Below, one piece after another: positions 1 through 14,116 of a stretch of 16,972 nucleotides of DNA (the first letter of the stretch is position 1; each line of letters starts with the position of its first letter). Location: positions 1 to 16,972 of the forward strand of contig CAMLOF010000030.1 of NCBI GenBank assembly GCA_946481585.1. The letters run 5' to 3'. Below the pieces are notes generated by a model that was not told where the DNA came from, ran no database searches, and saw nothing but the letters and a program-made list of their open reading frames with translations. The position numbers and the translations under genes were made by a program. Source of the stretch: an uncultured Macromonas sp. (GTDB lineage Bacteria > Pseudomonadota > Gammaproteobacteria > Burkholderiales > Burkholderiaceae).

Positions 1-337
1 CGATGTTGTCGTAGATGGACATGGGAAAAGGCGTGGGCTTCTGGAACACCATGCCAATTCGCGCGCGCAGCAGGTTCAAGTCCTGCTTTTCGTCCAGGAT
101 GTTCTGGCCGTAGAAGTTGATTTCGCCCTCGGCACGTTGACCAGGGTAGAGGCTGTACATGCGGTTGAGCGTGCGCAGCAGCGTGGACTTGCCGCAGCCG
201 GACGGGCCGATGAAGGCCGTGACCTTGCGCTCGGCAATGTCCATGTTGATGTTCTTGAGACCCTGAAACTTGCCGTAGAAAAAGTTCAGGTTGCGCACTT
301 CAAGCGCGTTCTTGGTCTGGACGATGGTGTCGGTCAT
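1..337 (-). CDS. pstB: Phosphate ABC transporter ATP-binding protein PstB (partial, N-terminal 112 residues)
   Basis: ATPase subunit of the high-affinity phosphate importer; it drives phosphate uptake across the inner membrane with the PstC/PstA channel. The start ATG is at 337, and the gene runs off the left edge after 112 codons of a protein that is usually about 260 residues. Visible motifs are Walker [10 protein letters not shown] (residues 44-52) and the Q-loop segment [13 protein letters not shown] (95-107, Q99), the latter typical of PstB. The ABC signature, Walker B and H-loop lie outside the window. It follows pstA by 46 bases on the same strand, as the last visible member of pstSCAB. 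Whether phoU and phoB follow cannot be seen. Confidence 0.96.
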
Positions 338-383
338 GATGTTGATCCGTAATGGGTCAGGTGCAACGCCAGGGCACAAGCCC

Positions 384-1238
384 TCAGCGGCTCACCTTCT
401 CGCGGAAGTAGACGCGGGCCAGGATGTTGAGAACCAGCACAGCCAGAGTGATGATGAGTGCGCCACCCCAGGCCAGGCGGATCCAGTTGTCGTAAGGGCT
501 CATGGCGAACTGGAAGATCACCACGGGCAGGTTGGCCATGGGCTTGCCCATGTCGGTGCTGAAGAACTGGTTGTTGAGCGCAGTGAACAACAGAGGAGCA
601 GTCTCTCCGCTGATGCGTGCCACTGCCAGCAGCAAGCCGGTGATCACGCCGCTCTTGGCCGCACGCAACGTCACCATCGTGGCCACCTTCCAGCGTGGTG
701 CCCCCAACGCAAAAGCCGCTTCGCGCAGGCTGCCGGGCACCAGGCGCAACATGTTTTCAGTGGTACGCACCACCACAGGAATGGCGATCAGCGACAGCGC
801 CAAGCTGCCCGCGTAACCAGAGAAGTTGCCTACCGTGGCCACGGCAATGGCGTAAACGAACAGGCCAAGCACAATGGACGGCGCAGACAGCATGATGTCC
901 GTCACGAATCGCGTCAGCGCTGCGGTATTGCTCTGGTCACCGTACTCGGCCAGATAGACCCCAGCCAGTATGCCCACCGGGGTGGCCACAAGCACCGTCA
1001 GGCCGACCATCATGAGGCTACCCACCAGGGCATTGCGCAAGCCACCGCCTTCCGAACCAGGTGCGGGAGTGTCGGCGGTGAACATGTTCCAGTCCAAGGC
1101 CGACAGGCCGTTGGAGAAAAGCACGATCAGAATCCAGAGCAGAACGGCGAGCCCCAGTGCCATGGCACCCATGGACATGGTGATACCCACCGCATTCGCC
1201 ATGCGGCGCCGCTGGTAAAGCTGGTGATTGAATTGCAT
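384..1238 (-). CDS. pstA: Phosphate ABC transporter permease PstA
   Basis: One of two inner-membrane channel subunits of the Pst phosphate importer. The 284-residue product has a short basic cytoplasmic N-terminus, a first membrane segment at about residues 17-42, and further hydrophobic segments through to the C-terminus, six in all by eye. The permease EAA coupling loop reads [19 protein letters not shown], the region that contacts the ATPase PstB. Length matches the family (E. coli PstA is about 296). The start ATG at 1238 lies 23 bases after the pstC stop, so the two genes are surely cotranscribed. No unusual residues were noticed. Confidence 0.96.
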
Positions 1239-1261
1239 GGGTGTGATCTCGTCTGGAAGAT

Positions 1262-2260
1262 TCAGGCGCCCTTGGCCTTTTCAGCGCGCAAGATGAGCAG
1301 CTTGGCCAGTGCCAGCACGATGAACGTGATGACGAACAGCAGCAAGCCCAACGCGAACAGCGCAGAGACATGCAGATCGGCTGCCTCGCCAAATTCGTTG
1401 GCCAGCGTGGATGCGATGGAGGTGCCAGGCGAAAACAGGGAGTTGGGCAGGCGGTTGGCGTTGCCAATGACAAAGGTCACAGCCATGGTCTCACCCAGGG
1501 CACGCCCCAGGCCGAGCATCACGCCGCCAATCACCCCTTTTTGGGTGTAAGGCAAAACCACCTTGCGCACCACTTCCCAAGTGGTACAACCCAGGCCGTA
1601 GGCGGACTCCCGCAGAATGGGAGGCACGATCTCGAACACATCACGCATCACCGCAGCCACAAACGGCAACACCATGAATGCGAGGATGATGCCTGCGGCC
1701 AGAATGCCCAGGCCGTTCGGCGCGCCGCCGAACATCCAGCCCACCAAAGGCATGCCGCCCAGCAGGTTCTGGGTGGGCACCTGTACGTAGTCGGCAAACA
1801 AAGGTGCAAAAATGAACAAGCCGAACATACCGTAGATGATGGACGGCACTGCGGCAAGCAGTTCAACGGCGGTGCCCAGCGGGCGGCGCAGCCAGACCGG
1901 GCAGGTCTCGGTCAGGAACAGGGCAATGCCAAAAGCCAGCGGCACAGCCAAGGCCATGGCAATACCCGCACTCAGCAGGGTGCCCACAATGGCTATGACG
2001 GCGCCAAATTCCTCATTGATGATGTCCCACTCCACGTACCACAGAAAGCGCAGACCGAATTTCTGGAAGGTGGGCCAGGCATTGATGACCAGGGAAACGA
2101 TGATGCCCATCAGCGCGATCAAGACCAGCAACGAGAAAAACTGGGTCACGCGATGGAAAAAGAAATCCTGGAGCCGTTGCTTGCGCGCAATGGCCACCAT
2201 GGACTCGCTTGCGGTCTCCTGAACCGCTGTTCGTGGATTCATGGCTACTCCGACGTCCAT
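1262..2260 (-). CDS. pstC: Phosphate ABC transporter permease PstC
   Basis: Second channel subunit of the Pst phosphate importer. It begins with a roughly 35-residue cytoplasmic N-terminal tail, then hydrophobic segments starting with [19 protein letters not shown]. The EAA loop is [19 protein letters not shown], and the conserved [12 protein letters not shown] follows. I chose the ATG at 2260 because GAGGGAG (2266-2272) sits 5 bases upstream, giving 332 residues. The ATG at 2242 (MNPRT) also has GGAG 5 bases upstream and would give 326 residues, so it is a real alternative. An upstream in-frame ATG at 2299 would start inside the terminator hairpin and is unlikely. The gene is separated from pstS by a hairpin that probably lowers its expression. 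Confidence 0.95.
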
Positions 2261-2290
2261 ACAGACTCCCTCTAGCATAGCCTCTAGATA

Positions 2291-2327
2291 CAAAAACAAC
2301 CACCGCCCCCTTGCAGGGAACGGTGGT
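2291..2327 (-). terminator. Intrinsic terminator/attenuator between pstS and pstC
   Basis: Reading the minus strand, ACCACCG pairs with CGGTGGT (plus positions 2321-2327 with 2299-2305). An inner CCCT/AGGG helix (2315-2318 with 2308-2311) closes on a three-base loop, and the 3' arm is followed by TGTTTTTG (2298-2291). This has the shape of a rho-independent terminator directly after pstS. Because pstC, pstA and pstB lie downstream on the same strand with no obvious new promoter, it is best read as a partial terminator giving more binding protein than transporter. Stem, loop and U-run are seen; the attenuation is inferred. Confidence 0.8.
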
Positions 2328-2343
2328 CATGCAAACCGGCCGC

Positions 2344-3378
2344 TTACTTCTGGATCTGAGCCCAGACTTTGGAACGGATTTCAGCAGTCAGCTTGTCGGG
2401 CAGCGGCACGTAGTCCAACTCGGTGGCCATGGCCTTGCCCTTGCTGAAGGCCCAGTCGAAGAACTTCAGTGCTTCGGCAGAGGCAACCTTGTCCGCGGGC
2501 TGCTTGTACATCAGGATGAACGATGCCGTGCTGATGGGCCAGGACTCTGCGCCCTTGGCGTTGACCATGGAGATGCCCATGCCAGGCACGCTGAACCAGT
2601 CGGCACCAGCAGCAGCGGCGGCAAAGGTCTTGTCGTCCGGGCTGACGTACTTGCCATCGGCGTTCTGCAGTTGCAGGAACGTCATGTTGTTCTTCTTGAC
2701 GTAAGCGTATTCCACGTAGCCCACGGAACCTTTGACGCGGTTGACGTTGGCAGCAACGCCTTCGTTGCCCTTGCCACCCACGGAGGTCGGTGCCGGCCAC
2801 TTCACGGCAGCGCCCTTGCCCACGGAGTCAGCCCAGTCCTTGCTGACGGCGCTCAGGTAGTCGGTGAAGTTGAAGGTGGTGCCGGAGCCGTCGGCGCGGT
2901 GCACCACGGTGATGGGCTGGTCAGGCAAGCTCTTGCCGGGGTTCAGAGCAACCAGCTTGGCGTCGTTCCACTTGGTGATCTTGCCCATGAACACGTCGGC
3001 CAGCACGGGGCCGGTCACGCGCAGTTCACCCGGCTTGAAGCCTTCCAGGTTCACCACAGGCACGGTGCCACCGATGATGGCCGGGAACTGGACCATGCCG
3101 TCCTTGTCGAGCTCTTCACCCTTGACCGGCGCGTCGGAGGCACCGAAAGTGACAGTTTTGGCACGAATTTGCTTGAGACCACCGGAAGAACCGATGGACT
3201 GATAGTTCAGACCGGTACCCGTTTCCTTCTTGTATGCCTCGGCCCACTTCGCGTACACCGGGAAGGGGAAGGTAGCGCCGGCACCAGTGATGTCGGCGGC
3301 CAGAGCCACGTGGCTGAAGCCCATGGTGGCGGCAGCAACGGCAGCAGCGGCAACGGTTTTCAGGAAGGTGCGTTTCAT
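2344..3378 (-). CDS. pstS: Periplasmic phosphate-binding protein PstS
   Basis: Secreted phosphate receptor of the Pst importer. The product is 344 residues. A Sec signal peptide covers residues 1-27 (basic MKR, alanine-rich core, cleavage after HVALA). The mature protein opens with ADITGAGATFPFPVYAKW, the standard PstS N-terminus; phosphate-contacting stretches GSSGG and RADGSGTTFNFTDYL are present. No lipobox cysteine is seen, so it is soluble rather than a lipoprotein. The start at 3378 is supported by AGAGGA four to five bases upstream and by the signal peptide; a longer frame starting at 3417 would place residues ahead of the signal. A Pho box and -10 lie just upstream. Confidence 0.97.
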   Translation of the reverse strand: MKRTFLKTVAAAAVAAATMGFSHVALAADITGAGATFPFPVYAKWAEAYKKETGTGLNYQSIGSSGGLKQIRAKTVTFGASDAPVKGEELDKDGMVQFPAIIGGTVPVVNLEGFKPGELRVTGPVLADVFMGKITKWNDAKLVALNPGKSLPDQPITVVHRADGSGTTFNFTDYLSAVSKDWADSVGKGAAVKWPAPTSVGGKGNEGVAANVNRVKGSVGYVEYAYVKKNNMTFLQLQNADGKYVSPDDKTFAAAAAGADWFSVPGMGISMVNAKGAESWPISTASFILMYKQPADKVASAEALKFFDWAFSKGKAMATELDYVPLPDKLTAEIRSKVWAQIQK

Positions 3379-3415
3379 CGAAGTCCTCTTGATGAAGGTT
3401 GGAAGGAATGACTGC

Positions 3416-3449
3416 ACTTTAGGAATCTTGTGTGACAGTCATATGACAG
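3416..3449 (-). promoter_or_regulatory. Pho box and -10 element of the pst promoter
   Basis: The minus strand reads CTGTCATATGACTGTCAC at 3449-3432: two 7-base PhoB direct repeats (CTGTCAT and CTGTCAC) separated by 4 bases, a near-perfect match to the Pho box consensus. Ten bases downstream is TAAAGT (3421-3416), a 4/6 match to TATAAT, at the spacing expected where PhoB replaces the -35 contact. The predicted start is about 30 bases before the pstS ATG. This supports induction of pstS by PhoB under phosphate starvation. phoB itself is not in the window. Confidence 0.88.
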
Positions 3450-3461
3450 AACAGCGGTTTT

Positions 3462-3468
3462 CTGTCAC
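3462..3468 (+). promoter_or_regulatory. Isolated PhoB half-site facing ppx
   Basis: CTGTCAC on the plus strand forms, with one flanking base, an exact 8-base inverted repeat (TGTGACAG at 3431-3438, CTGTCACA at 3462-3469) with the distal half of the pst Pho box. No second direct repeat is seen at the required 11-base spacing, so this is not a full plus-strand Pho box. It may extend PhoB binding at the pst promoter or help regulate ppx; neither is shown by the sequence alone. Confidence 0.35.
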
Positions 3469-3520
3469 ATCACACCCTCTGTCTTGGCTGGTAACCCGTC
3501 AGGGTTTCCACCGGGAACGG

Positions 3521-3529
3521 TGTTATGCT
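3521..3529 (+). promoter_or_regulatory. Extended -10 promoter for ppx
   Basis: TGTTATGCT has the TGn extension followed by TATGCT (4/6 to TATAAT). It would start transcription near 3536, about 20 bases before the chosen ppx ATG at 3556. No convincing -35 lies 17 bases upstream, which is tolerable for an extended -10 promoter. The candidate Pho half-site would then sit near -70. Confidence 0.4.
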
Positions 3530-3555
3530 GGGCGCCCTTCAAGAGATTGAACGGC

Positions 3556-5040
3556 ATGCAAAACGGAACATTATTGGCGGCGGTGGACCTGGGGTCCAAC
3601 AGTTTCCGCCTTGAAATCGGTCGCTACGACTCAGGCCACATCGAACGTGTGGAATACCTGAAGGAAACGGTGCGCCAGGGCAGCGGGCTGGACGAAAACA
3701 AGAACCTGAGCCTGGTGGCCATGGAGCGCGGCTGGGAATGTCTGGCGCGTTTTGCCGAACGGTTGCACGGTTTCAAAAAGAACCAAGTGCGGGCCGTGGC
3801 CACACAGACGTTGCGCGACGCCCGCAACCGAGACGATTTTCTGCGCAAGGCGCAGGCGATTCTGGGCTTCACCATAGACGTGGTTTCGGGCCACGAAGAA
3901 GCACGCCTGATCTACCAGGGCGTGTCGCATTTGCTGCCGCAGTCGGACGAGCGCCGTCTGGTGATGGACATTGGCGGCCGCTCCACGGAAATCATCCTGG
4001 GCCAGGGCTATGCCCCGATCAGGATGGAGTCTTACCGGCTGGGCAGTGTGGCCTGGTCAACGCGCTACTTCCCTCGGAATCAATTCACTCCTGCCCTGCT
4101 GCAGACGGCTGTGATCGCAGCCAAGGCGGTGCTGGACGAAGCACTCGACACCTTCTCGGCCAGTGAATGGACGGTGGCTTACGGATCGTCCGGCACGGTG
4201 GGGGCAGTGGCAGACATCCTGGGGGCCAACGGCTTCCCGCAGGGGGTGATCACCCGCGACGGGCTGAACTGGCTGGCCGACCGCATGCTGCGCGCCGTGA
4301 ATGCAGACGAATTGCGCCTGGAAGGCCTAAAGGAAGACCGGCGCCCAGTACTGGGGGGCGGCGTCAGCGTGCTGCTCGCCCTGTTCGACCTGTTCGAGTT
4401 CGACGTGATGCAGCGAGCCGAAGGCGCCTTGCGTCAGGGCGCCCTGTACGACCTGATCGATCGGGAAACTGATGAGACCGACGTGCGCGAACGCACGGTG
4501 CGCTGGCTGTCAGAACGCTTTTCAGTGGACAAGGCGCAGGCACAGCGCGTGAGCGACGTGGCCACCAAGCTCTTCTCGCAGGTGGCCACGGCTGACCCGC
4601 TCAATGGCCGTTATTCGCAAAAGCTCGCCTGGGCAGCGCGCCTGCATGAGATTGGCACACATATCTCGCACACCAGTGCCCACCGGCACGGGGCGTACAT
4701 TCTTGATCACGTGGATGCGCCCGGCTTTTCCATGCCCGAACTGCACCGCATGAGTCAACTGGTGCTGGGCCAGCGCGGCAAACTGCGCAAGCTGGAAGCG
4801 GATCTGGGTGACGAGTTGTTTGCCAAACAACTGCTTTGCCTGCGGCTGGCCGTGCTGCTGTGCCACGCGCGCAAGGACCCGGAAGTCGGTGCGCTGCGTT
4901 TGAGCTACCGCTCGCGCGGCTTCAAGCTGACCACCGTGCCCGGCTGGGCACGCCAGTTCCCTCAATCCGCCTGGTTGCTGGAAGAGGAAGTGGAGGCTTG
5001 GCAGAAATCCGATTGGCGCTTCACGGTAGACATGCGCTGA
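3556..5040 (+). CDS. ppx: Exopolyphosphatase, Ppx/GppA family
   Basis: Hydrolyses terminal phosphates of polyphosphate; GppA-type members also convert pppGpp to ppGpp. The 494-residue product starts with the ASKHA phosphate-binding loop AAVDLGSNSFRLEIG (D11). The candidate catalytic glutamate is E115 in SGHEEARLIYQG, and the second phosphate loop is DIGGRSTEI (138-146), with Arg where many homologues have Gly. A C-terminal HD-like helical region contains LAWAARLHEIGTHISH. ATG 3556 is preferred to an upstream in-frame TTG at 3484, because homology begins right after it and a candidate extended -10 lies between the two. Ppx and GppA cannot be separated by eye; the position beside pst and near pap favours polyphosphate as substrate. 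Confidence 0.92.
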   Translation: MQNGTLLAAVDLGSNSFRLEIGRYDSGHIERVEYLKETVRQGSGLDENKNLSLVAMERGWECLARFAERLHGFKKNQVRAVATQTLRDARNRDDFLRKAQAILGFTIDVVSGHEEARLIYQGVSHLLPQSDERRLVMDIGGRSTEIILGQGYAPIRMESYRLGSVAWSTRYFPRNQFTPALLQTAVIAAKAVLDEALDTFSASEWTVAYGSSGTVGAVADILGANGFPQGVITRDGLNWLADRMLRAVNADELRLEGLKEDRRPVLGGGVSVLLALFDLFEFDVMQRAEGALRQGALYDLIDRETDETDVRERTVRWLSERFSVDKAQAQRVSDVATKLFSQVATADPLNGRYSQKLAWAARLHEIGTHISHTSAHRHGAYILDHVDAPGFSMPELHRMSQLVLGQRGKLRKLEADLGDELFAKQLLCLRLAVLLCHARKDPEVGALRLSYRSRGFKLTTVPGWARQFPQSAWLLEEEVEAWQKSDWRFTVDMR

Positions 5041-5045
5041 CACCC

Positions 5046-6275
5046 GTGCACCAGTTTGACGTCACCATCATCGGCGCGGGAGCCGCCGGGCTTTTCTGCG
5101 CAGGGGTCGCAGGCCAGTTGGGTCTGCGAGTGCTCCTGATTGACCACGCGCCAAAAATCGCAGAGAAAATCCGCATCTCAGGCGGCGGCCGATGCAACTT
5201 CACCAACCGCGACCTGGACCCGCGCCAGCCGCAGAAGCATTTCCTGGGTGACAACCCGCACTTCTGCCGCTCCGCCCTCTCGCGCTACACACCATCCGAT
5301 TTCATCGAACTGCTGCAACGCCACGGCGTGCCCTTCCACGAAAAGCACAAGGGCCAGCTGTTCTGCGACCGCTCCGCGCAAGACGTGATCGACGTGCTTC
5401 TGCGTGAATGCGAAGCCGGGCAGGTGCAGCGCTGGCAACCGTGTTCGGTAAGGCAAGTCCGCTCGAGCACCAACGACAGCGGCATGCGCTATGAACTCGA
5501 CACCGACGAAGGCACCGTGGCCTGCCGCTCGGTGGTGGTGGCCACGGGCGGCCTGCCAGTGCCCAAAATCGGCGCCACCGACTTCGGCCTTCGGCTGGCC
5601 AGACAGTTTGGCCTGGAATTGGTGGAAACACGCCCTGCCTTGGTCCCACTGACGTTTGACGGTAACAGCTGGGCGCCCTTCGCTGATCTGGCGGGTCTGG
5701 CACTTCCCGTGCGCATGGAAACCGGTGAAAAGAAGCAGCGCGCCGAGTTCCTGGAGGATCTGCTGTTCACCCACCGGGGCCTGAGTGGCCCGGCTGTGCT
5801 GCAGATATCCAGCTACTGGCGCCCAGGTCAGCCACTGCGCATAGACCTGCACCCTGACGAAGCACTGGAGCCCTTGCTGCAAGACGCCAAGGCACGCTCG
5901 CGCAAGCTGCTGGCCAACGAATTGGCCCTGCACATGCCCGCCCGCCTGGCGGACGCCTGGACGCAGCAAAACCCACAGTGGCAACGCCCCGTCAACGAAG
6001 CCAGCGACAAGGCCCTGGCCGAACTTGCCCAAGGCCTGCACCGCTGGCAGATCACGCCCACGGGTACCGAGGGCTATGCCAAGGCCGAAGTCATGGCTGG
6101 GGGCGTGAACACGCGCCAGCTTTCGTCCCAGACCATGGAGTCGAGCCAGCCCGGCCTGTACTTCATTGGCGAAGTAGTGGACGTGACTGGCTGGCTGGGT
6201 GGCTACAACTTCCAGTGGGCGTGGTCCAGCGCCTATGCCTGCGCCCAGGCCCTGGCCGTCGAACCGCGCGGCTGA
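5046..6275 (+). CDS. FAD/NAD(P)-dependent oxidoreductase, BaiN/HI0933 family
   Basis: Flavoprotein of the HI0933/BaiN family (the YhiN type), whose physiological substrate in most bacteria is unknown. The FAD-binding fold is marked by IIGAGAAG (residues 8-15) and acidic D33. The family signature GGGRCNFTN is at 46-54, VVVATGGLPVPKIGATDFG lies mid-protein, and the C-terminal FAD-binding end contains GLYFIGEVVDVTGWLGGYN. The predicted length, 409, is usual. The only sensible start is GTG 5046, because no ATG lies near the fold start and homology begins at residue 4; the ribosome binding site is poor. It starts 5 bases after the ppx stop, so translation is probably coupled. Any link to phosphate metabolism is inference from position only. 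Confidence 0.9.
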   Translation: MHQFDVTIIGAGAAGLFCAGVAGQLGLRVLLIDHAPKIAEKIRISGGGRCNFTNRDLDPRQPQKHFLGDNPHFCRSALSRYTPSDFIELLQRHGVPFHEKHKGQLFCDRSAQDVIDVLLRECEAGQVQRWQPCSVRQVRSSTNDSGMRYELDTDEGTVACRSVVVATGGLPVPKIGATDFGLRLARQFGLELVETRPALVPLTFDGNSWAPFADLAGLALPVRMETGEKKQRAEFLEDLLFTHRGLSGPAVLQISSYWRPGQPLRIDLHPDEALEPLLQDAKARSRKLLANELALHMPARLADAWTQQNPQWQRPVNEASDKALAELAQGLHRWQITPTGTEGYAKAEVMAGGVNTRQLSSQTMESSQPGLYFIGEVVDVTGWLGGYNFQWAWSSAYACAQALAVEPRG

Positions 6276-6290
6276 GCGCGCGCCTCAGTC
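6270..6290. other. Inverted repeat holding two convergent stop codons
   Basis: GGCTGAG (6270-6276) pairs with CTCAGTC (6284-6290) through seven pairs, one of them G-T, around a CGCGCGC loop. The TGA of the flavoprotein gene and the TGA of pap (minus strand) lie symmetrically in the two arms. No T-run follows on either strand, so a classical intrinsic terminator is not supported. It may simply limit read-through between the convergent genes. Confidence 0.35.
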
Positions 6291-7772
6291 CACCTTGTCC
6301 AGCGCCTGCTCAAGGCGCTCGCACAGGGTCTGCAACACCTCGATGCGCGCAAACAGCTTGTCGTTAGACGCCACCACATGCCACGGTGCCACCTGCGTGG
6401 AGGTGCGGTCGATCATGTCCTCCACCGCGCGCTCGTAAAGTGGCCACTTATCGCGGTTGCGCCAGTCGTCGTCGGTGATCTTGTAGTTCTTGTGCGGCGT
6501 CTCCTGTCGCTCGCGAAAGCGCCGCAACTGCTCCTCGGGCGTGATGGCCAGCCAGAACTTCACGATCACTGCGCCGGACTCGGCCAGTTCCTCTTCGTAA
6601 CCGTTGATCTCGTCGTAGGCGCGCATCCAGTCCGCTTCGCTGCAAAAGCCTTCAACACGCTCCACCAGCACGCGCCCGTACCACGACCGGTCAAAGATGA
6701 CCGAACGCCCGTGGGCGGGGATGTAGCGCCAGAAGCGCCACAAGTAAGGCTGCGCTCGCTCGTTTTCGTTGGGTGCAGCCACGGGAACCACGCGGTAGAA
6801 CCGCGCGTCCAGCGCATGCGTGATGCGGCGAATCGTGCTGCCCTTGCCTGCCGCGTCCATACCCTCGAACACCAGCACCAGAGCGCGCTTGCGCATGCGC
6901 GGGTCACGGCTGAGCCCGTTGAGACGGCCTTGCAGAACCTCGAGCTTTTCCTCATAGTGTTTGCGGGTGAGGTGGCGACCGTAGTCTTGCGCAGCCAACA
7001 GGCTGCGCTTGTCCAGCGGCGGGGCCACTCTTGTGGCGGCAGGCTTGCGGCGCTCGGCTGGCTGCTCGAAACGTTGCTGTAAAACCTCCAGCAAATGGCG
7101 GCCTGCCGTCAGGTAACGGTAGGCAGGGTCGCTGCCTTCAATCACCACCCACGGTGCCTCGGCCGTGCTGGTCTTGCGCAGCGCCTCGTCGCTCACGCGA
7201 ATGAAGTCGTCATAGTGCTTCAGGTTGTCCTTTTCCTGGGGCTGCACCCGCCAAGCCGTCTTGGGATCAGACTCCAGCACCTTGAGGCGCTCCTTCGAAG
7301 CCTTCTTCGACAGATGGAACCAAAGCTTCACCAGAACCACGCCCTCGGCAGCCAGCATGCGCTCGAAGCGGCGGATGCGCTCCAGCCGGTGCACGAAGCG
7401 GTCATGCTTGTCCTTGCCCCTGGCGTGCGAAACGATGGGGTCCGTGTACCAGGAACCGAACAAAATGCCAATGTGTCCCTTGGGCGGCAGCACCTGCCAG
7501 AAGCGCCACATCTCGGGGTGCTGTCGTTCCGCATCAGTCTGCAGACCAAACGCCTCGGTTCGGATGTGACGCGGGTCCATCCACTCGTTGAGAACGTTGA
7601 CGGTTTCACCCCGACCTGCGCCGTCCACACCATTGACCAGAATGACGACAGCCGTTTTTGCTTCGCTAAGCAAGCGGTATTGCGCGTCCAGCAAGGCAGC
7701 GCGCAACAGCGGCTCTTCTTTCTTGAAGACCTTTTTGTCCACCCGGTGGCCGATTTCTGCCGACTCGAACAT
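6285..7772 (-). CDS. pap: Polyphosphate:AMP phosphotransferase (two-domain PPK2 family)
   Basis: Transfers phosphate from polyphosphate to AMP, making ADP (class II PPK2). The product is 495 residues with two tandem PPK2 domains, the known architecture of Pap. The N-terminal domain carries an altered Walker A (GVDGAGRGET, residues 48-57, lacking the usual lysine). The C-terminal domain has an intact GMDAAGKGST (304-313), followed by ALDARFYRVVPVAAPNE and the lid/Walker B region SVIFDRSWYGRVLVERVEG. This matches the expectation that the C-terminal copy is catalytic. The start ATG 7772 has AGGAG 7 bases upstream. The gene converges on the ppx flavoprotein unit with a 9-base gap and diverges from rpsU. 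Confidence 0.93.
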   Translation of the reverse strand: MFESAEIGHRVDKKVFKKEEPLLRAALLDAQYRLLSEAKTAVVILVNGVDGAGRGETVNVLNEWMDPRHIRTEAFGLQTDAERQHPEMWRFWQVLPPKGHIGILFGSWYTDPIVSHARGKDKHDRFVHRLERIRRFERMLAAEGVVLVKLWFHLSKKASKERLKVLESDPKTAWRVQPQEKDNLKHYDDFIRVSDEALRKTSTAEAPWVVIEGSDPAYRYLTAGRHLLEVLQQRFEQPAERRKPAATRVAPPLDKRSLLAAQDYGRHLTRKHYEEKLEVLQGRLNGLSRDPRMRKRALVLVFEGMDAAGKGSTIRRITHALDARFYRVVPVAAPNENERAQPYLWRFWRYIPAHGRSVIFDRSWYGRVLVERVEGFCSEADWMRAYDEINGYEEELAESGAVIVKFWLAITPEEQLRRFRERQETPHKNYKITDDDWRNRDKWPLYERAVEDMIDRTSTQVAPWHVVASNDKLFARIEVLQTLCERLEQALDKVD

Positions 7773-7821
7773 ACCCAACTCCTGTGCGTGCCGCCCGTTG
7801 CTGCGAATCCACACACTGTAA

Positions 7822-7850
7822 TGGCAAAAACGAAAAACAAACGCTATAAT
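7822..7850 (+). promoter_or_regulatory. rpsU promoter with perfect TATAAT box
   Basis: A perfect -10 TATAAT lies at 7845-7850. A weak -35 candidate TGGCAA (7822-7827; 3/6 to TTGACA) sits 17 bases upstream. Transcription would start near 7857, leaving a leader of about 120 bases before rpsU. A strong promoter is expected for a ribosomal protein gene. The element overlaps the upstream region of the divergent pap gene. Confidence 0.7.
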
Positions 7851-7861
7851 CCTGGGCTTTG

Positions 7862-7953
7862 CTGGCAAACCCCCGTCGGCCGTGATCACCTGATGACGGG
7901 GAAAACTTGCCGCAGCGCGGGTTCAGGGCCCGATCTTCCCTGGACACCGGCGC
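7862..7953 (+). promoter_or_regulatory. Structured 5' leader of rpsU (two hairpins)
   Basis: Two hairpins fill most of the untranslated leader. The first has an outer stem GGCAA/TTGCC (7864-7868 with 7907-7911) and an inner stem CCCCGTC/GACGGGG (7871-7877 with 7895-7901), with the palindrome GTGATCAC (7882-7889) in its loop. The second pairs GTTCAGGG with CCCTGGAC (7921-7928 with 7938-7945) and can be prolonged by bulged GC pairs toward 7915 and 7953. The ribosome binding site GGAAA (7964-7968) follows 10 bases before the ATG and is weak. A leader this structured on a ribosomal protein gene suggests translational autoregulation. I do not recognise a named RNA family. Confidence 0.5.
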
Positions 7954-8778: not shown

Positions 8779-9633
8779 GTGCATTCATCCGCTGCTGACA
8801 GCGAACCTGGGTTGCAGGCCGTGAGCCAGGCCCCAGGGCGGACTGGCCCCGTCGGCGTGTTTGACTCCGGCGTCGGCGGCCTGTCCGTGCTGCGGGAAAT
8901 CCGCCTTGCAATGCCTGGCGAAACACTGCATTACGTTGCAGACTCCGGGCACGCGCCCTACGGTGAAAAGAGCGCCGATTACATCGAGGCGCGCACGGTC
9001 CACATCATCGAGTTCCTGCGCACGCTCGACGCCAAGGCCATCGTCGTGGCGTGCAACACAGTCACCGGCCTGATCATCCAGCGCCTGCGCGAACGCTTTC
9101 CCAACCTGCCCATGGTGGCCATCGAGCCAGCCGTGAAACCCGCTGCGCAGGTGACGCGCAGCGGCGTGGTGGGTGTGCTCGCCACCCGCCAAACGGTTGC
9201 CAGCCCAGGGCTGGCGCGCCTGGTGTCCACCTACGGCGACGGCAAACGCATGCTGCTTCAAGCTTGCCCTGGCTGGGTGGAACGTGTGGAACGTGGTGAC
9301 CTGGACAGCCCCGACACCGAGGCAGCCGTGGCAGCTTACGTGCGCCCGCTCGTGGAACAAGGCGCCGACACCTTGGTGCTGGGCTGCACGCACTACCCCT
9401 TCCTGGCCCCGGTGATCCAGCGCATGGCCGGGTCAAGCGTTCAGGTGATCGACCCCGCCGCTGCAGTGGCACGCGAACTGGGGCGCCGCTTGACTCAACT
9501 GGGACTTGAGGCGCCCGCCAGCCACCATGTTGCACCCGAGCACTTCTGGACCAGCGGCGACGTGACTCAAGCGGAACGGGTGATGACCCGCCTGTGGGGC
9601 CACCCTGTTCACCCACGGCCACTGCCAGGTTGA
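8779..9633 (+). CDS. murI: Glutamate racemase
   Basis: Converts L-glutamate to D-glutamate for peptidoglycan. Both catalytic cysteines are present: C92 in VVACNTVTG and C203 in LVLGCTHYPFL. The N-terminal DSGVGGLSVLREI (D29) and ADSGHAPYG motifs are intact. No ATG exists near the start. GTG 8779 gives 284 residues with a variable 24-residue extension; GTG 8821 would give 270, closer to the family core. Neither has a clear ribosome binding site, so the start is uncertain while the rest is secure. It lies 15 bases after yqeY and is probably cotranscribed with it. Confidence 0.95.
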   Translation: MHSSAADSEPGLQAVSQAPGRTGPVGVFDSGVGGLSVLREIRLAMPGETLHYVADSGHAPYGEKSADYIEARTVHIIEFLRTLDAKAIVVACNTVTGLIIQRLRERFPNLPMVAIEPAVKPAAQVTRSGVVGVLATRQTVASPGLARLVSTYGDGKRMLLQACPGWVERVERGDLDSPDTEAAVAAYVRPLVEQGADTLVLGCTHYPFLAPVIQRMAGSSVQVIDPAAAVARELGRRLTQLGLEAPASHHVAPEHFWTSGDVTQAERVMTRLWGHPVHPRPLPG

Positions 9634-9706: not shown

Positions 9707-10723
9707 ATGCGCCCCCCATCAACGCAACAACAACGACCTGCGCGCTGGACGGCAACGCTTACCGCACTGACATTGCTCTGGATCGCTTTTTGCAGCCCCG
9801 CACTTGCTGCCGATCCGAAACCGGTACGCATCGGGGTGATCAAGATAGTCTCCCACGCAGCCTTGGATGCAGACGAAAAAGGGTTTGAAGCCGCGCTGGC
9901 CAGCGCCGGGTTCAAAGAGGGCGTGAACGTTGTTTACGACCGGCAAAACGCCAAAGGCGACCCCGCCCGGGCTCAAGCCATTGCACAGAAGTTCGTGAAC
10001 GAGAAGGTGGACCTCATTCACAGCATCGCCACACCATCAACCCAAGCCGTGCTGCAGACCACCAACAGCATTCCCGTGGTGTTTTCCTCGGTCACCGACC
10101 CGGTCAGTGCAGGCATCGTCCCCAGAGACAGTGCTCCAGGCAAGAAGACGGGCACCAACGTTACTGGCGTGAGCGACCAGTGGCCCGTACAACTGCAGTT
10201 GGAGACCTACGCCCGCTTCGTGCCCAAGGTGCGCATCTGGGGCACCATCTTCAACCCGTCTGAAGCGAACTCAATGCAGCACATCCAGGCGCTGCGCTCG
10301 GCGGCAGCTCAACTCAACTTCACCTTGGTAGAGGCCACCGTATCCACCAGCCAGGACGTCGAACGCGCAGCGCGCTCGCTGGTCGGCCGCGTGCAGGCCA
10401 TCACGATCACCTCGGACAACACAACGGTTGCCAACCTGGAAGCGCTGGCCAAGGTGTGCAGGGAGCAAAAGATCCCGCTTTTTGCGGGCGACGTGGACAG
10501 CGTTTCCCGTGGCGCGATTGCGGCTTACGGGCTGGACTACTACCTAGTGGGCTACTCGGCAGGCAAGAAGGCCGCGCTTGTACTCAAAGGCATCAAGCCC
10601 GGCGACACACCTTGGGGCCCGGTTGAGAAGTTCAGCCTGGTGGTGAACCCCGACGCCGCCTCTGCCCAGGGCATCACCATCCCCCCTGACATGTTCAAGC
10701 GTGCCGACCGAGTGATACGCTGA
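9707..10723 (+). CDS. TrpX-like periplasmic substrate-binding protein (ABC_sub_bind family)
   Basis: Secreted solute-binding protein of the TrpX/COG2984 type; family members bind small ligands including aromatic amino acids, but the ligand here cannot be read from sequence. The 338-residue product has a signal peptide (residues 1-34, cleavage after SPALA). Two type I binding lobes follow, with the family segments RIGVIKIVSHAALDADEKGF (41-60), LIHSIATPSTQAV (103-115), IPVVFSSVTDPVSAGIV and NVTGVSD. The start has GGGAG 6 bases upstream. No permease or ATPase gene adjoins, unlike trpXYZ loci. Instead a membrane diguanylate cyclase gene starts 23 bases downstream, suggesting a sensory rather than transport role (inference). 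Confidence 0.88.
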   Translation: MRPPSTQQQRPARWTATLTALTLLWIAFCSPALAADPKPVRIGVIKIVSHAALDADEKGFEAALASAGFKEGVNVVYDRQNAKGDPARAQAIAQKFVNEKVDLIHSIATPSTQAVLQTTNSIPVVFSSVTDPVSAGIVPRDSAPGKKTGTNVTGVSDQWPVQLQLETYARFVPKVRIWGTIFNPSEANSMQHIQALRSAAAQLNFTLVEATVSTSQDVERAARSLVGRVQAITITSDNTTVANLEALAKVCREQKIPLFAGDVDSVSRGAIAAYGLDYYLVGYSAGKKAALVLKGIKPGDTPWGPVEKFSLVVNPDAASAQGITIPPDMFKRADRVIR

Positions 10724-10746
10724 TCCACCTGCCACGACCGTTATCC

Positions 10747-11982
10747 ATGCGTTTACAGGGAAGCCTTTACGCGGCAGTGGCCGTGCTGCTCATTTCGATT
10801 GGCATAGGTGCCTACGTCGACCACCAGAACGACAGCATGCACCAGCGCCACCTTGAGGTGGGCACCCGCCTGGAGCGCATGGTGCGCCTGAGCCAGGAAC
10901 TCACGGGCATGCTGGCCACAGCCGTGCTGGAAGGCAACACACTGCGCACCGCAAGTTACGACACGGTTAAGACTGAACTCGACCACACCTTTGAGACCGT
11001 GGACAGTTTGACCAGAGACTTCAATCTGGCAGGAGAGATGAGCGCTCTTAGCCAGGAACACGACAAACTGCGTGTGGTGGAGCGGCAAGCGATTGACCTG
11101 ATGCGCGCCGACCGCTGGCAGGATGCTCGCCAACTGCTGGCGGACGACAACTACCTGATGGCACGCAAGATCTACGAAATCAACAGTGAAACCGTGGTAG
11201 GCGCGCTAAGCGGTGAACTGGCTGCCATGGCAAGTCAGCACGCGCGCTGGCGGCAAGCCGCGCTGGCCTTGCGTCTGGGCGCGGTGGCACTGCTGTTATG
11301 GGTGGGTGGCAGGTTCTCAAGGCGCCTGCGCAAAGAGGTGCTGGAACAACAGCGGCTGCGGCTGAAGATCAGCGCTGCCAATCAGGCGCTGGAGGAAAAG
11401 GTGAAGCAGCGGACGAAGGAGCTGCAGGTAGCCAACCGCCAGCTTGAAGTGTTGAGTGCCACTGATGGCTTGACTGGCCTGGCCAACCGCAGGCACTTCG
11501 ACACCATCTGGCAGCAGGAATGGCAGCGCGCCACACGCCAAGGCTTGCCGCTGGCGGTGATCATGCTAGACGTGGACCACTTCAAGGCGTTCAACGACGA
11601 ATACGGCCACCCCGCTGGGGACGAATGCCTCAGGCAAGTGGCGCAGGTGCTGGCAGCCACAGCGCGGCGGGCTGGTGAACTGGCTGCACGCTACGGCGGC
11701 GAGGAATTTGTGGTGGTGTTGCCCAACACCTCGCCCCAGGTGGCCAGGCAGACCGCCGAGCTGATCCGCCGGGGCGTGCAGGCCCTGGCCATTGCACACG
11801 CAAAGTCGGCCACCTCCACGGTGGTGACGGTGAGCCTGGGCTTCAGCGCCCGTGTTCCAGCGCTCGATGATGGGCTCTACAGCCTGTTGCAGGAAGCCGA
11901 TGACGCGCTTTACCAAGCCAAGCGCCAAGGCAGGAACCTGGTCATGGAATGGGCGCCAGCCGAGGACACCCTTTCCCTGTGA
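10747..11982 (+). CDS. Membrane-bound diguanylate cyclase (GGDEF) with periplasmic helical sensor
   Basis: Makes c-di-GMP from two GTP. The 411-residue product has membrane helix 1 (residues 6-23), a mostly helical periplasmic region of about 150 residues (24-170), membrane helix 2 (about 171-188), a cytoplasmic coiled coil (about 195-237) and a GGDEF domain (238-402). The active-site motif is GGEEF (317-321) and the metal-binding stretch is LDVDHFKAFND (D275, D277), so catalysis is expected. At the inhibitory I-site the usual RxxD is R308-A-G-E311, a conservative change that may weaken product feedback. No PAS, GAF or HAMP domain is recognised. It follows the solute-binding gene by 23 bases and converges on pmbA. 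Confidence 0.92.
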   Translation: MRLQGSLYAAVAVLLISIGIGAYVDHQNDSMHQRHLEVGTRLERMVRLSQELTGMLATAVLEGNTLRTASYDTVKTELDHTFETVDSLTRDFNLAGEMSALSQEHDKLRVVERQAIDLMRADRWQDARQLLADDNYLMARKIYEINSETVVGALSGELAAMASQHARWRQAALALRLGAVALLLWVGGRFSRRLRKEVLEQQRLRLKISAANQALEEKVKQRTKELQVANRQLEVLSATDGLTGLANRRHFDTIWQQEWQRATRQGLPLAVIMLDVDHFKAFNDEYGHPAGDECLRQVAQVLAATARRAGELAARYGGEEFVVVLPNTSPQVARQTAELIRRGVQALAIAHAKSATSTVVTVSLGFSARVPALDDGLYSLLQEADDALYQAKRQGRNLVMEWAPAEDTLSL

Positions 11983-11997
11983 AGCCAGCAGACGGCC

Positions 11998-13449
11998 TCA
12001 ACTGCCCGCCACCTTCATGCGGTCGATGAGCACGGAGCCCACCGTCTTCGCGCCGTAGGCGTAGTCATCAGCCCCCACGGCCACGATGCCGCGGAACATG
12101 TCCTTCAGGTTGCTGGCGATGGTGATTTCCTGCACAGGGAAAGCGATGCGGCCGTTTTCCACCCAGAAGCCTGCCGCGCCGCGCGAGTAGTCGCCCGTCA
12201 CGTAGTTCACGCCCTGGCCCATCAACTCGGTCACGAACAGGCCCGTGCCCAGCTTGCGCAGCATTGCATCCAGGTCGTCGCCGCTCTGCGTGAGGCGGCT
12301 GGTCAGGAACAGGTTGTGCGAGCCACCCGCGTTGCCGGTGGTACGCATGCCCAGTTTGCGGGCGGAATACGTGCTCAGGAAATAGCCCTTCACGCAGCCG
12401 CCGCCCACCACTTGGCGCCCCACGGTCTTCACGCCTTCGTCGTCAAAAGGCGCACTGCCCTTGCCGCCGGGAATCAGCGGGTCTTCCACGATGTCGATGT
12501 GGTTGGGAAACACCTGGCGGCCCAGGCTGTCCACCAGGAAGGTGGTCTTGCGGTAGAGCGCACCGCCGCTGACGGCCTGCACAAACGCCCCCAGCAGGCC
12601 AGCAGCCAGCGGCGCCTCGAACAGCACCGGGCATTCGGTGGTGGGAATCTTGCGCGGGTTCAAGCGCGACAAGGCACGCTCAGCCGCGTAGCGGCCCACT
12701 GCCTCGGGGCTGGCCAGTTCATCGGGCGAGCGCATGGAGCTGTACCAGTAGTCGCGCTGCATGTTGGCACCGCGCCCTGCAATGGGTGCTACCGAGAAGC
12801 TGTGCCGCGAACTGGCGTACCCACCACGGAAGATGCCCGCGCGCCCGCGCTCGCCGCCACGCATGTGTTCGGTGAAGAAGTGCGATTGCTGCGCAGACAC
12901 CCCTGCACCTTCGCTGTTGGTGATCTTCTTGCTGGTGGCCAGCGCCGCACCTTCGCAGCGCAGGGCAATCTGCAACGCCTCTTCGGCGCTGATGGCCCAG
13001 GGGTGGAACAGGTCCAGGTCGGGGTAGTCGTTGGCAATGTCCTGCTCGTCGGGCAGGCCTGCCACCGGATCTTCGGCGGTGAAGCGGGCAATGTCGTAAG
13101 CGGCCTGTACCGTCTGGCGGATGGCCTCAGCGGAAAAGTCTGATGTGGACGCGTTGCCGCGCCGCTGCCCCAGGTAAACCGTGATGCCAAGCGACTTGTC
13201 GCGGTTGCGCTCCACGTTTTCCAACTCACCCTTGCGAACCGATACGCTCAGCCCCGAGCCCTCGGAAACCTCGACGCCTGCATCCGATGCGCCGAGTTTG
13301 CGGGCGTGGATCAACGCCTGGTCGGCCAACTCTTCAAACTGTTCTCGGCTGTACTGGAAGCCGCTGGCGGGTGCTGGTGCAGGAGCGGCGGGCTTGCGCA
13401 CAGAAGCGGAAGAAACAGCGGACGGGGTTCGGGCGGGGGTCTTTTTCAT
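11998..13449 (-). CDS. pmbA: Metalloprotease accessory protein PmbA/TldE
   Basis: TldD/PmbA family protein; with TldD it forms the zinc protease that processes peptide antibiotics (microcin B17) and degrades CcdA. TldE itself lacks the catalytic HExxH, and none is seen here. Family stretches include GASDAGVEVSEGSGLSVSV, NVERNRDKSLGITVYLGQRR, VSGGALYRKTTFLVDSLG and GNAGGSHNLFL. The product is 483 residues from ATG 13449, with an Ala/Pro/Lys-rich tail of about 30 residues ahead of the conserved domain. An in-frame ATG at 13473 would add 8 residues. No Shine-Dalgarno is visible for either. tldD is not in the window. The gene is divergent from darP with only 22 bases between start codons. Confidence 0.93.
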   Translation of the reverse strand: MKKTPARTPSAVSSASVRKPAAPAPAPASGFQYSREQFEELADQALIHARKLGASDAGVEVSEGSGLSVSVRKGELENVERNRDKSLGITVYLGQRRGNASTSDFSAEAIRQTVQAAYDIARFTAEDPVAGLPDEQDIANDYPDLDLFHPWAISAEEALQIALRCEGAALATSKKITNSEGAGVSAQQSHFFTEHMRGGERGRAGIFRGGYASSRHSFSVAPIAGRGANMQRDYWYSSMRSPDELASPEAVGRYAAERALSRLNPRKIPTTECPVLFEAPLAAGLLGAFVQAVSGGALYRKTTFLVDSLGRQVFPNHIDIVEDPLIPGGKGSAPFDDEGVKTVGRQVVGGGCVKGYFLSTYSARKLGMRTTGNAGGSHNLFLTSRLTQSGDDLDAMLRKLGTGLFVTELMGQGVNYVTGDYSRGAAGFWVENGRIAFPVQEITIASNLKDMFRGIVAVGADDYAYGAKTVGSVLIDRMKVAGS

Positions 13450-13458
13450 GTCGGCGGC

Positions 13459-13465
13459 TATGATA
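13459..13465. promoter_or_regulatory. Overlapping -10 candidates between pmbA and darP
   Basis: TATGAT (plus, 13459-13464) and TATCAT (minus, 13465-13460) each match TATAAT at 5 of 6 positions and overlap almost fully. They lie in the 22-base gap between divergent start codons. Either would start transcription within a few bases of an ATG, implying leaderless or near-leaderless messages. No -35 is recognised on either side, so the call is weak. Confidence 0.25.
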
Positions 13466-13471
13466 CTTGGC

Positions 13472-14116
13472 ATGGCACGCAAACCCACCAAAGGCTATTT
13501 CGTCAAAGGCCATTTCGTCGCTGAAGGCAGCGAACTGGACCTGGAACTCAAGCGCGAACTCAAAGGCGACGTTGAGCAAAGCAAGACCGACCTGAAGAAA
13601 CGCAGCGACCACCTGCAATCCCTGGGCGAAGCCCTGCTGACCCTGCGCAAGGGGCTGCTGGACAAGCTCGCCTTGTCCGACAGCCTGCTCGACGCACTGG
13701 CAGAGGCCAAGCGCATCACCAACTTCGAAGGCCGCCGCCGGCAGATGCAGTACATCGGCAAGCTCATGCGCAAGCTCGATGAAGGCACCGTCACCGCCAT
13801 CGAGTCTGCGCTGGAGGTGCAGCACCAGGGCAGCGCCCAGGAGACGCAGCGCCTGCACGAGGCAGAGCAATGGCGCGACCGCCTCGTCAACGACGAGGCC
13901 GCGCTCAACGAATGGCTGCAGCTCGACCCGGACGCCGACCTGCAGCACCTGCGCTCGCTCATCCGGCAGGCCCGCAAGGACGCTCAGGCCAAGGCAGGCG
14001 CAGAGCGCCCCGGCGAGGCCCAGCGCCACGGCAAGGCCTACCGCGACATCTTCCAGATCGTGCGCACCCGCCTCAGCGGCGCGGCTGACGAAGCCCCCAC
14101 CGACACCGAAGAATGA
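13472..14116 (+). CDS. darP: Ribosome biogenesis factor DarP (YjgA family, DUF615)
   Basis: YjgA/DarP associates with late 50S precursors and promotes subunit maturation. The 214-residue product is almost wholly helical and highly charged. Family signatures are LKRELKGDVEQSKTDLKKRS, ALAEAKRITNFEGRRRQMQY and IGKLMRKLD, followed by a helical tail ending in acidic residues. The start MARKPTKGYF at 13472 is chosen; an ATG four codons earlier (13460) is possible. No clear ribosome binding site is seen. The gene overlaps mog by 4 bases (ATGA), so the two are translationally coupled. Confidence 0.92.
   Translation: MARKPTKGYFVKGHFVAEGSELDLELKRELKGDVEQSKTDLKKRSDHLQSLGEALLTLRKGLLDKLALSDSLLDALAEAKRITNFEGRRRQMQYIGKLMRKLDEGTVTAIESALEVQHQGSAQETQRLHEAEQWRDRLVNDEAALNEWLQLDPDADLQHLRSLIRQARKDAQAKAGAERPGEAQRHGKAYRDIFQIVRTRLSGAADEAPTDTEE

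Follow-up and report, generated by a model that had tools for sequence, protein, structure and literature searches.

The 16,972-nucleotide stretch at positions 1 to 16,972 of contig CAMLOF010000030.1 (assembly GCA_946481585.1) from an uncultured Macromonas sp., referred to as the window, contains a gene for a secreted solute-binding protein (SBP) of the ABC_sub_bind family that is followed by a gene for a transmembrane GGDEF protein. We propose, with a probability of roughly 0.8, that both proteins constitute a two-protein ligand receptor for cyclic di-GMP (c-di-GMP), in which the SBP docks on a periplasmic four-helix bundle of the GGDEF protein and gates the synthesis of c-di-GMP. Most likely, the SBP acts as the detachable ligand sensor of this receptor and not as part of an uptake system. 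The gene pair of the window comprises the following elements:

9707..10723, plus strand: gene for the ABC_sub_bind (TrpX-like) SBP, 338 amino acids (open reading frame; PF04392)
10724..10746, plus strand: intergenic gap of 23 nucleotides between the SBP gene and the GGDEF gene, without a terminator-like site
10747..11982, plus strand: gene for the transmembrane GGDEF protein, 411 amino acids (open reading frame; PF00990)

Conservation of the gene pair and its outputs

A profile of 14 SBPs was used to search a collection of genome contigs that was entered through two peptide patterns, and the resulting 53 SBP loci are therefore a sample. At 35 of these loci a sensor module is encoded downstream of the SBP, in 34 cases without an intervening gene and in one case (L003) with a porin gene in between. 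Matches to a permease and an ATPase were detected at 11 loci (L026, L029, L031, L042, L045 and L047-L052), while L012 and L035 represent operons with genes for SiaB-like, SiaC, GGDEF and dCache-HAMP-SpoIIE proteins. The remaining five loci were not classified: contig ends truncate L037, L046 and L053, and L038 and L041 show neither kind of neighbour in the examined DNA. By record title or rank, the pair occurs in Comamonadaceae, Rhodocyclaceae, Alcaligenaceae, Geobacteraceae, Desulfobacteraceae and further groups, for the most part amid other genes; L022, for example, is from Rhodoferax antarcticus. The genes flanking the pair in the window are common to L020 of Macromonas bipunctata alone among the 35 pair loci, several of which lie on short contigs, indicating that the pair persists while its surroundings change.

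A second survey covered 299 genomes of the Burkholderiaceae, the family of Macromonas, with SBP matches collected at E 1e-80 and up to 7 scored candidates per genome. The matches form two sets, one of 7 genomes at 389-571 bits and one of 36 genomes at 272-293 bits. All seven high-scoring SBPs adjoin the sensor, three of them (G013, G015 and G022) being known from the contig scan and four being new. In the lower-scoring set, 13 of the 36 genomes were examined and a permease gene was adjacent in all 13. The adjacency of such an SBP and a two-helix GGDEF protein without a permease, which the initial annotation had described for the window, was recovered as a conserved feature by both surveys.

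A cognate transporter encoded elsewhere in the genomes was also sought. One TrpY-type permease query was applied at E 1e-15 to 31 of the 35 sensor-paired draft genomes (those of L011, L014, L015 and L017 were left out), and this search, which addressed the TrpY-type family only, gave no match in 26 genomes. The other five genomes contain a TrpY-type permease gene, one with an internal stop, and there a second, lower-scoring SBP adjoins the permease. As controls, four of four transporter genomes were positive (one being the query's own genome) and two Sia-type genomes were negative. Within the 35 pair loci themselves, no permease match was obtained at E 1e-5. Accordingly, the SBP genes accompany the receptor gene and lack the transporter partner usual for this family, with respect to TrpY-type permeases in the 31 genomes. 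Both genomic checks on which the initial annotation could have failed, conservation of the pairing and a cognate transporter elsewhere, came out in its favour.

A tree of 71 SBPs, which is unrooted and in which the placement of some long rows is uncertain, contains one branch with a support of 100/99 that parts transporter-linked from sensor-linked SBPs. The transporter side consists of 24 transporter-linked SBPs and L041, and the sensor side of 41 sensor-linked SBPs, that of the window among them, and of L012, L035, L037, L038 and L046; L037, whose context is cut, was grouped with L012 and L035 by similarity to L035 only. Since these five lie among the sensor rows, the sensor label alone needs five changes on the tree. 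Two positions differ between the groups: A51 is present in 86% of 42 sensor rows (counting the window and L096, a duplicate of L014), compared with P in all 24 transporter-linked rows, and L291 in 93% of the sensor rows, compared with R or Q in 22 of the 24 transporter-linked rows. The distance correlations of 25 GGDEF pairs amounted to 0.85 for SBP and sensor, 0.79 for sensor and GGDEF domain and 0.79 for SBP and GGDEF domain, with bootstrap intervals of the differences that include 0.

The outputs attached to the sensor at the 35 pair loci are GGDEF domains in 27 cases (among which L021 seems split and L004 is cut), SpoIIE in two, HisKA-HATPase in one and PAS in five (L003, L011, L014, L015 and L017), and both L015 and the kinase locus L007 run to the contig end. 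HisKA_3 was found on the sensor module as well. In one case, a sensor-SpoIIE gene shares an operon with genes for SiaB-like, SiaC and GGDEF proteins, and in L005 the SBP-linked sensor occupies the place of the dCache-HAMP sensor of L012 and L035. The sensor is a portable module with exchangeable outputs (GGDEF, SpoIIE, HisKA, HisKA_3 and PAS).

At five loci the SBP gene is adjoined by a gene for a DcaP-type outer-membrane porin (L001:6497-7873, L003:3958-5283, L005:1182-2591, L017:6576-7970 and L097:7129-8484), which was assigned by similarity to L001 in L005 and by Pfam in the other four; the porin gene of L003 is the one situated between SBP and sensor. In L011, the sensor-PAS gene is directly followed (10506-13576) by a gene that, as judged by reading only, resembles a sugar-type binding protein and then by one for a membrane protein containing PAS-like repeats; the arrangement looks like another binding-protein receptor placed after the first.

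The two proteins and their genomic surroundings

The designation of the SBP as a TrpX-like secreted binding protein was upheld by its match to the Pfam family ABC_sub_bind (PF04392; E 4.9e-82, 275.9 bits, gathering score 25.9), which extends over nearly the whole mature length, and by a likely signal peptide. The score of 238.2 bits against the NCBIfam model TrpX (NF041285) is under the curated cut-off of 390, so that the protein is TrpX-like and was not called TrpX. A lipobox is absent before Cys29 (IAFC), by inspection, and the SBP is therefore probably soluble and periplasmic; the calls on signal peptide and lipobox are motif judgements. The relevant positions are:

9707..9808, plus strand: likely signal peptide of the SBP, residues 1-34 (hydropathy windows 15-36; cleavage between ALA and AD, by inspection)
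10490..10492, plus strand: Asp262 of the SBP, aligned with Glu263 of CD0873, which touches the Tyr hydroxyl (alignment counted by hand)
10538..10540, plus strand: Tyr278 of the SBP, aligned with Tyr262 of VC_1101, Tyr279 of CD0873 and Gln284 of SP1069 (alignment counted by hand)

Near full-length matches were obtained to the PDB entries 6HNI, 3LKV and 3LFT (CD0873, VC_1101 and SP1069), and according to PMC6816091 the solved ABC_sub_bind relatives have Tyr, Phe or Trp bound. Asp262 is kept in 40 of the 42 sensor-side rows and in 24 of 24 transporter-linked rows, and Tyr278 in every row of both groups (42 and 24 rows, respectively). The alignment of these positions suggests that the ligand is amino-acid-like and perhaps phenolic, and most likely the SBP would bind an aromatic or related amino acid.

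The features of the GGDEF protein are as follows:

10762..10821, plus strand: transmembrane helix 1, about residues 6-25 (hydropathy)
10822..11253, plus strand: periplasmic four-helix bundle, about residues 26-169, the proposed SBP docking domain (fold predicted by AlphaFold2)
11254..11313, plus strand: transmembrane helix 2, about residues 170-189 (hydropathy)
11458..11937, plus strand: GGDEF domain, residues 238-397 (Pfam)
11695..11709, plus strand: GGEEF active-site motif, residues 317-321

Open reading frames, Pfam matches and hydropathy confirmed the earlier description of an SBP gene followed after 23 nucleotides by the gene for a two-helix GGDEF protein. The latter matches PF00990 with an E-value of 1.4e-52, no EAL domain was among its Pfam matches at E 0.1, and its closest named relative is from Hydrogenophaga aquatica (P0005, 92%). 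Given its intact GGEEF motif and its two membrane helices, it is predicted to be a transmembrane diguanylate cyclase that synthesizes c-di-GMP. An RxxD inhibitory site is expected ahead of GGEEF. At the corresponding position (11668-11679) the window encodes R-A-G-E, with R308 and G310 invariant and E311 nearly so in an alignment of 54 rows, and product inhibition may consequently be altered.

The periplasmic region between the hydropathy peaks (about residues 6-25 and 170-190) comprises about 145 residues, in agreement with the helical region of about 150 residues noted in the initial annotation, and was predicted as all-helical by AlphaFold2 (mean pLDDT of 87 over residues 1-200). Fold matches of the predicted bundle include MCP2201, Vc1313, PcaY_PP, Tar, 5xsj and 3o1h, and also designed bundles. 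Foldseek alone gave no match for the sensor at E 0.001 or better, and the comparison of its sequence with PDB chains yielded a single, unconvincing match at E 1.3. When tested against the Pfam family 4HB_MCP, the L001 sensor scored 16.8 bits compared with a gathering score of 27, and the window protein gave no match at E 0.1. A docking patch at the distal cap, considered on the basis of conservation, was rejected: the top columns (W124, K141, Y71, Y136 and N64) comprise residues close to the far-end loops, but the regional test was non-significant.

Upstream of the pair, a glutamate racemase gene (8779-9633) ends 73 nucleotides 5' of the SBP gene, and downstream the PmbA gene (11998-13491) is convergent with the pair. 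A promoter and terminator scan returned no signal exceeding that of shuffled sequences. The statement that no permease or ATPase gene lies nearby holds for the TrpY/TrpZ type, since such queries matched nothing within the window at E 1e-3, and has to be amended for the permease and ATPase genes at 2-2299 on the minus strand (part of pstB, then pstA and pstC), which belong with pstS (2344-3417) and lie more than 7 kb from the SBP gene on the opposite strand. At the window locus, the SBP gene does not adjoin the permease and ATPase genes that characterize a TrpXYZ-type importer. The pst genes form part of a phosphate gene cluster (2-7889) that additionally contains an exopolyphosphatase/GppA-like gene and a gene for a PPK2-type polyphosphate:AMP phosphotransferase; the names were taken from NCBIfam, and the Ppx/GppA-like gene scores below the cut-offs.

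Proposed mechanism and alternative explanations

In the proposed receptor, the secreted SBP would bind a small ligand without delivering it to a permease and would dock on the periplasmic four-helix bundle of the cyclase, which is presumably a dimer. Occupancy by the ligand might alter the helix packing of the bundle, and this change could travel via transmembrane helix 2 and a long helix (residues 134-238) and set the activity of the GGDEF domain. The physical contact between SBP and sensor, the class of the ligand and the activity of the cyclase are elements that we infer, and activation of the cyclase by the ligand-loaded SBP is slightly favoured over its inhibition.

The strength of the link was also assessed from the sensor side. 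With up to 10 scored candidates per genome, the 299 genomes contained 10 sensor loci in nine genomes, of which seven adjoin an SBP gene, one lies at a contig end (L059/L089) and two are without an SBP. In the Geobacterales, the sensor is present in five of 141 genomes, four times beside an SBP; in the genus of G019 it is present in two of 67 genomes, both times beside an SBP and both known from the contig scan, and in the order of Macromonas in one of 399 genomes, the starting genome itself. Outside the genomes of the SBP scan, five sensor loci with an SBP were found (the first copy of G156, G158, G168, G201 and G520); G498 repeats L014, and G520 possibly has the same source as SBP P0177 of Trichlorobacter ammonificans, which was already listed.

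Several observations weigh against the proposed receptor. Three of the sensor loci outside the SBP-scan genomes (the second copy of G156, G180 and G467) are without an SBP. At these loci, no SBP gene is present within the examined 19 kb at L058/L084 (G180) and L063/L085 (G156), nor nearby at the Geobacterales locus L095/L098 on a 12.7-kb contig. SBP and sensor are thus strongly linked, although with exceptions, and the system is rare and has a patchy distribution. Such loci would be expected if the four-helix sensor bound the ligand directly, as MCP2201- or Tar-type sensors do, and the SBP merely concentrated or scavenged the periplasmic ligand, and the predicted fold indeed also matches the directly ligand-binding bundles MCP2201, Vc1313, PcaY_PP and Tar. 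A scavenger, however, would require neither the pairing with one sensor across several output kinds nor an SBP branch of its own that lacks transporter partners, and we consider this explanation unlikely. In G156, the second sensor-GGDEF copy (L085:9123-10565) has no SBP nearby and the first copy has one; the copies might share a single SBP.

Even less probable is the assumption that the SBP is a transport protein sharing a distant or unrelated permease and that its adjacency to the cyclase reflects co-regulation of uptake and lifestyle. The nearest out-group relatives are transporter-linked SBPs, the two pocket residues are nearly identical in both groups, an ABC ATPase of 23-35% identity is encoded somewhere in the DNA of five of the 35 pair loci (L008, L009, L010, L025 and L044) and the permease search was limited to the TrpY type. 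On the other hand, this permease is absent from 26 of the 31 genomes and beside another SBP in the other five, and the sensor-side residues A51 and L291 stand where transporter-linked SBPs have P and mostly R or Q, respectively. The patchy distribution might finally indicate a functionally meaningless relic of shared descent or chance, which is very improbable because the pair remains intact where the flanking genes differ from those of the window and SBP and sensor remain paired while the outputs vary.

Extending the two-protein receptor to an evolutionary scenario, to which we assign even chances, a branch of ABC_sub_bind may have given up transport and come to serve as the ligand reader of a portable receptor with a four-helix bundle. 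Its input would reach c-di-GMP by a fused GGDEF domain or, in Geobacterales, by an SBP-gated SpoIIE phosphatase replacing SiaA in a SiaB-SiaC-cyclase phosphoswitch, and together with a DcaP-type porin, where present, it would provide an intake route that serves sensing alone and involves no importer in the inner membrane. For many transmembrane diguanylate cyclases, the signal is not known. Since the ligand reader is here a separate soluble protein with solved relatives whose crystals contained an amino acid, standard biochemical methods could identify the signal. Moreover, the exchangeable outputs represent natural controls, in which one kind of SBP-sensor input is wired to a cyclase, phosphatase or kinase.

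Comparison with known systems

According to PMC9602780, which considers 49 model bacteria, 13 out of 22 SBP families have been shown to target chemoreceptors, sensor kinases, diguanylate cyclases/phosphodiesterases or Ser/Thr kinases. A published pairing of an ABC_sub_bind/TrpX protein with a diguanylate cyclase was not found in our literature search, the coverage of which excluded most subscription papers and a key review on SBP signalling and did not identify the 13 families of PMC9602780; within this coverage, the result agrees with the earlier remark that no described pair of this kind is known. Vibrio cholerae CdgK (VC1104) was considered as a possible known analogue beside VC1101 and was dropped, as the accessible portion of a paper on V. 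fischeri CasA gives dCache/MCP-like sensor predictions and makes no mention of an ABC transporter, and that of PMC12051071 does not mention an operon.

In the SiaABCD system of Pseudomonas aeruginosa, as outlined in PMC7647112 and PMC8457831, the phosphorylation state of SiaC is determined by the PP2C phosphatase SiaA and the kinase SiaB, and SiaC in turn controls the cyclase SiaD. Related gene sets are located beside this kind of SBP in L005, L012 and L035, whereas SiaB, SiaC and SpoIIE queries gave no match in the window and a SiaD query matched the GGDEF domain only (11419-11943). TrpX, CD0873 and VC_1101 belong to the same ABC_sub_bind family as the SBP of the window, which differs in that it groups with the signalling SBPs in the tree and scores under the NCBIfam TrpX cut-off. 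In XylFII-LytS and TorT-TorS, solved structures summarized in PMC6321045 have binding proteins in contact with periplasmic sensor domains, and these sensors are among the fold matches of the window bundle (5xsj and 3o1h); there the output is a histidine kinase, whereas the window sensor lacks a convincing PDB sequence match. In NspS-MbaA of Vibrio cholerae and Sinorhizobium meliloti, a periplasmic binding protein informs a membrane-spanning GGDEF protein of its ligand and thereby sets c-di-GMP, as described in PMC8967002 and PMC9993111. The pair of the window resembles this system in combining a binding protein with a transmembrane GGDEF receptor, but MbaA contains both GGDEF and EAL domains and has a polyamine-binding partner, whereas the window encodes an ABC_sub_bind SBP and a GGDEF protein with a predicted four-helix bundle and no EAL domain in Pfam. 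SBP-gated receptors, cyclases included, are thus already known, and ABC_sub_bind in that role appears to be new within the literature covered.
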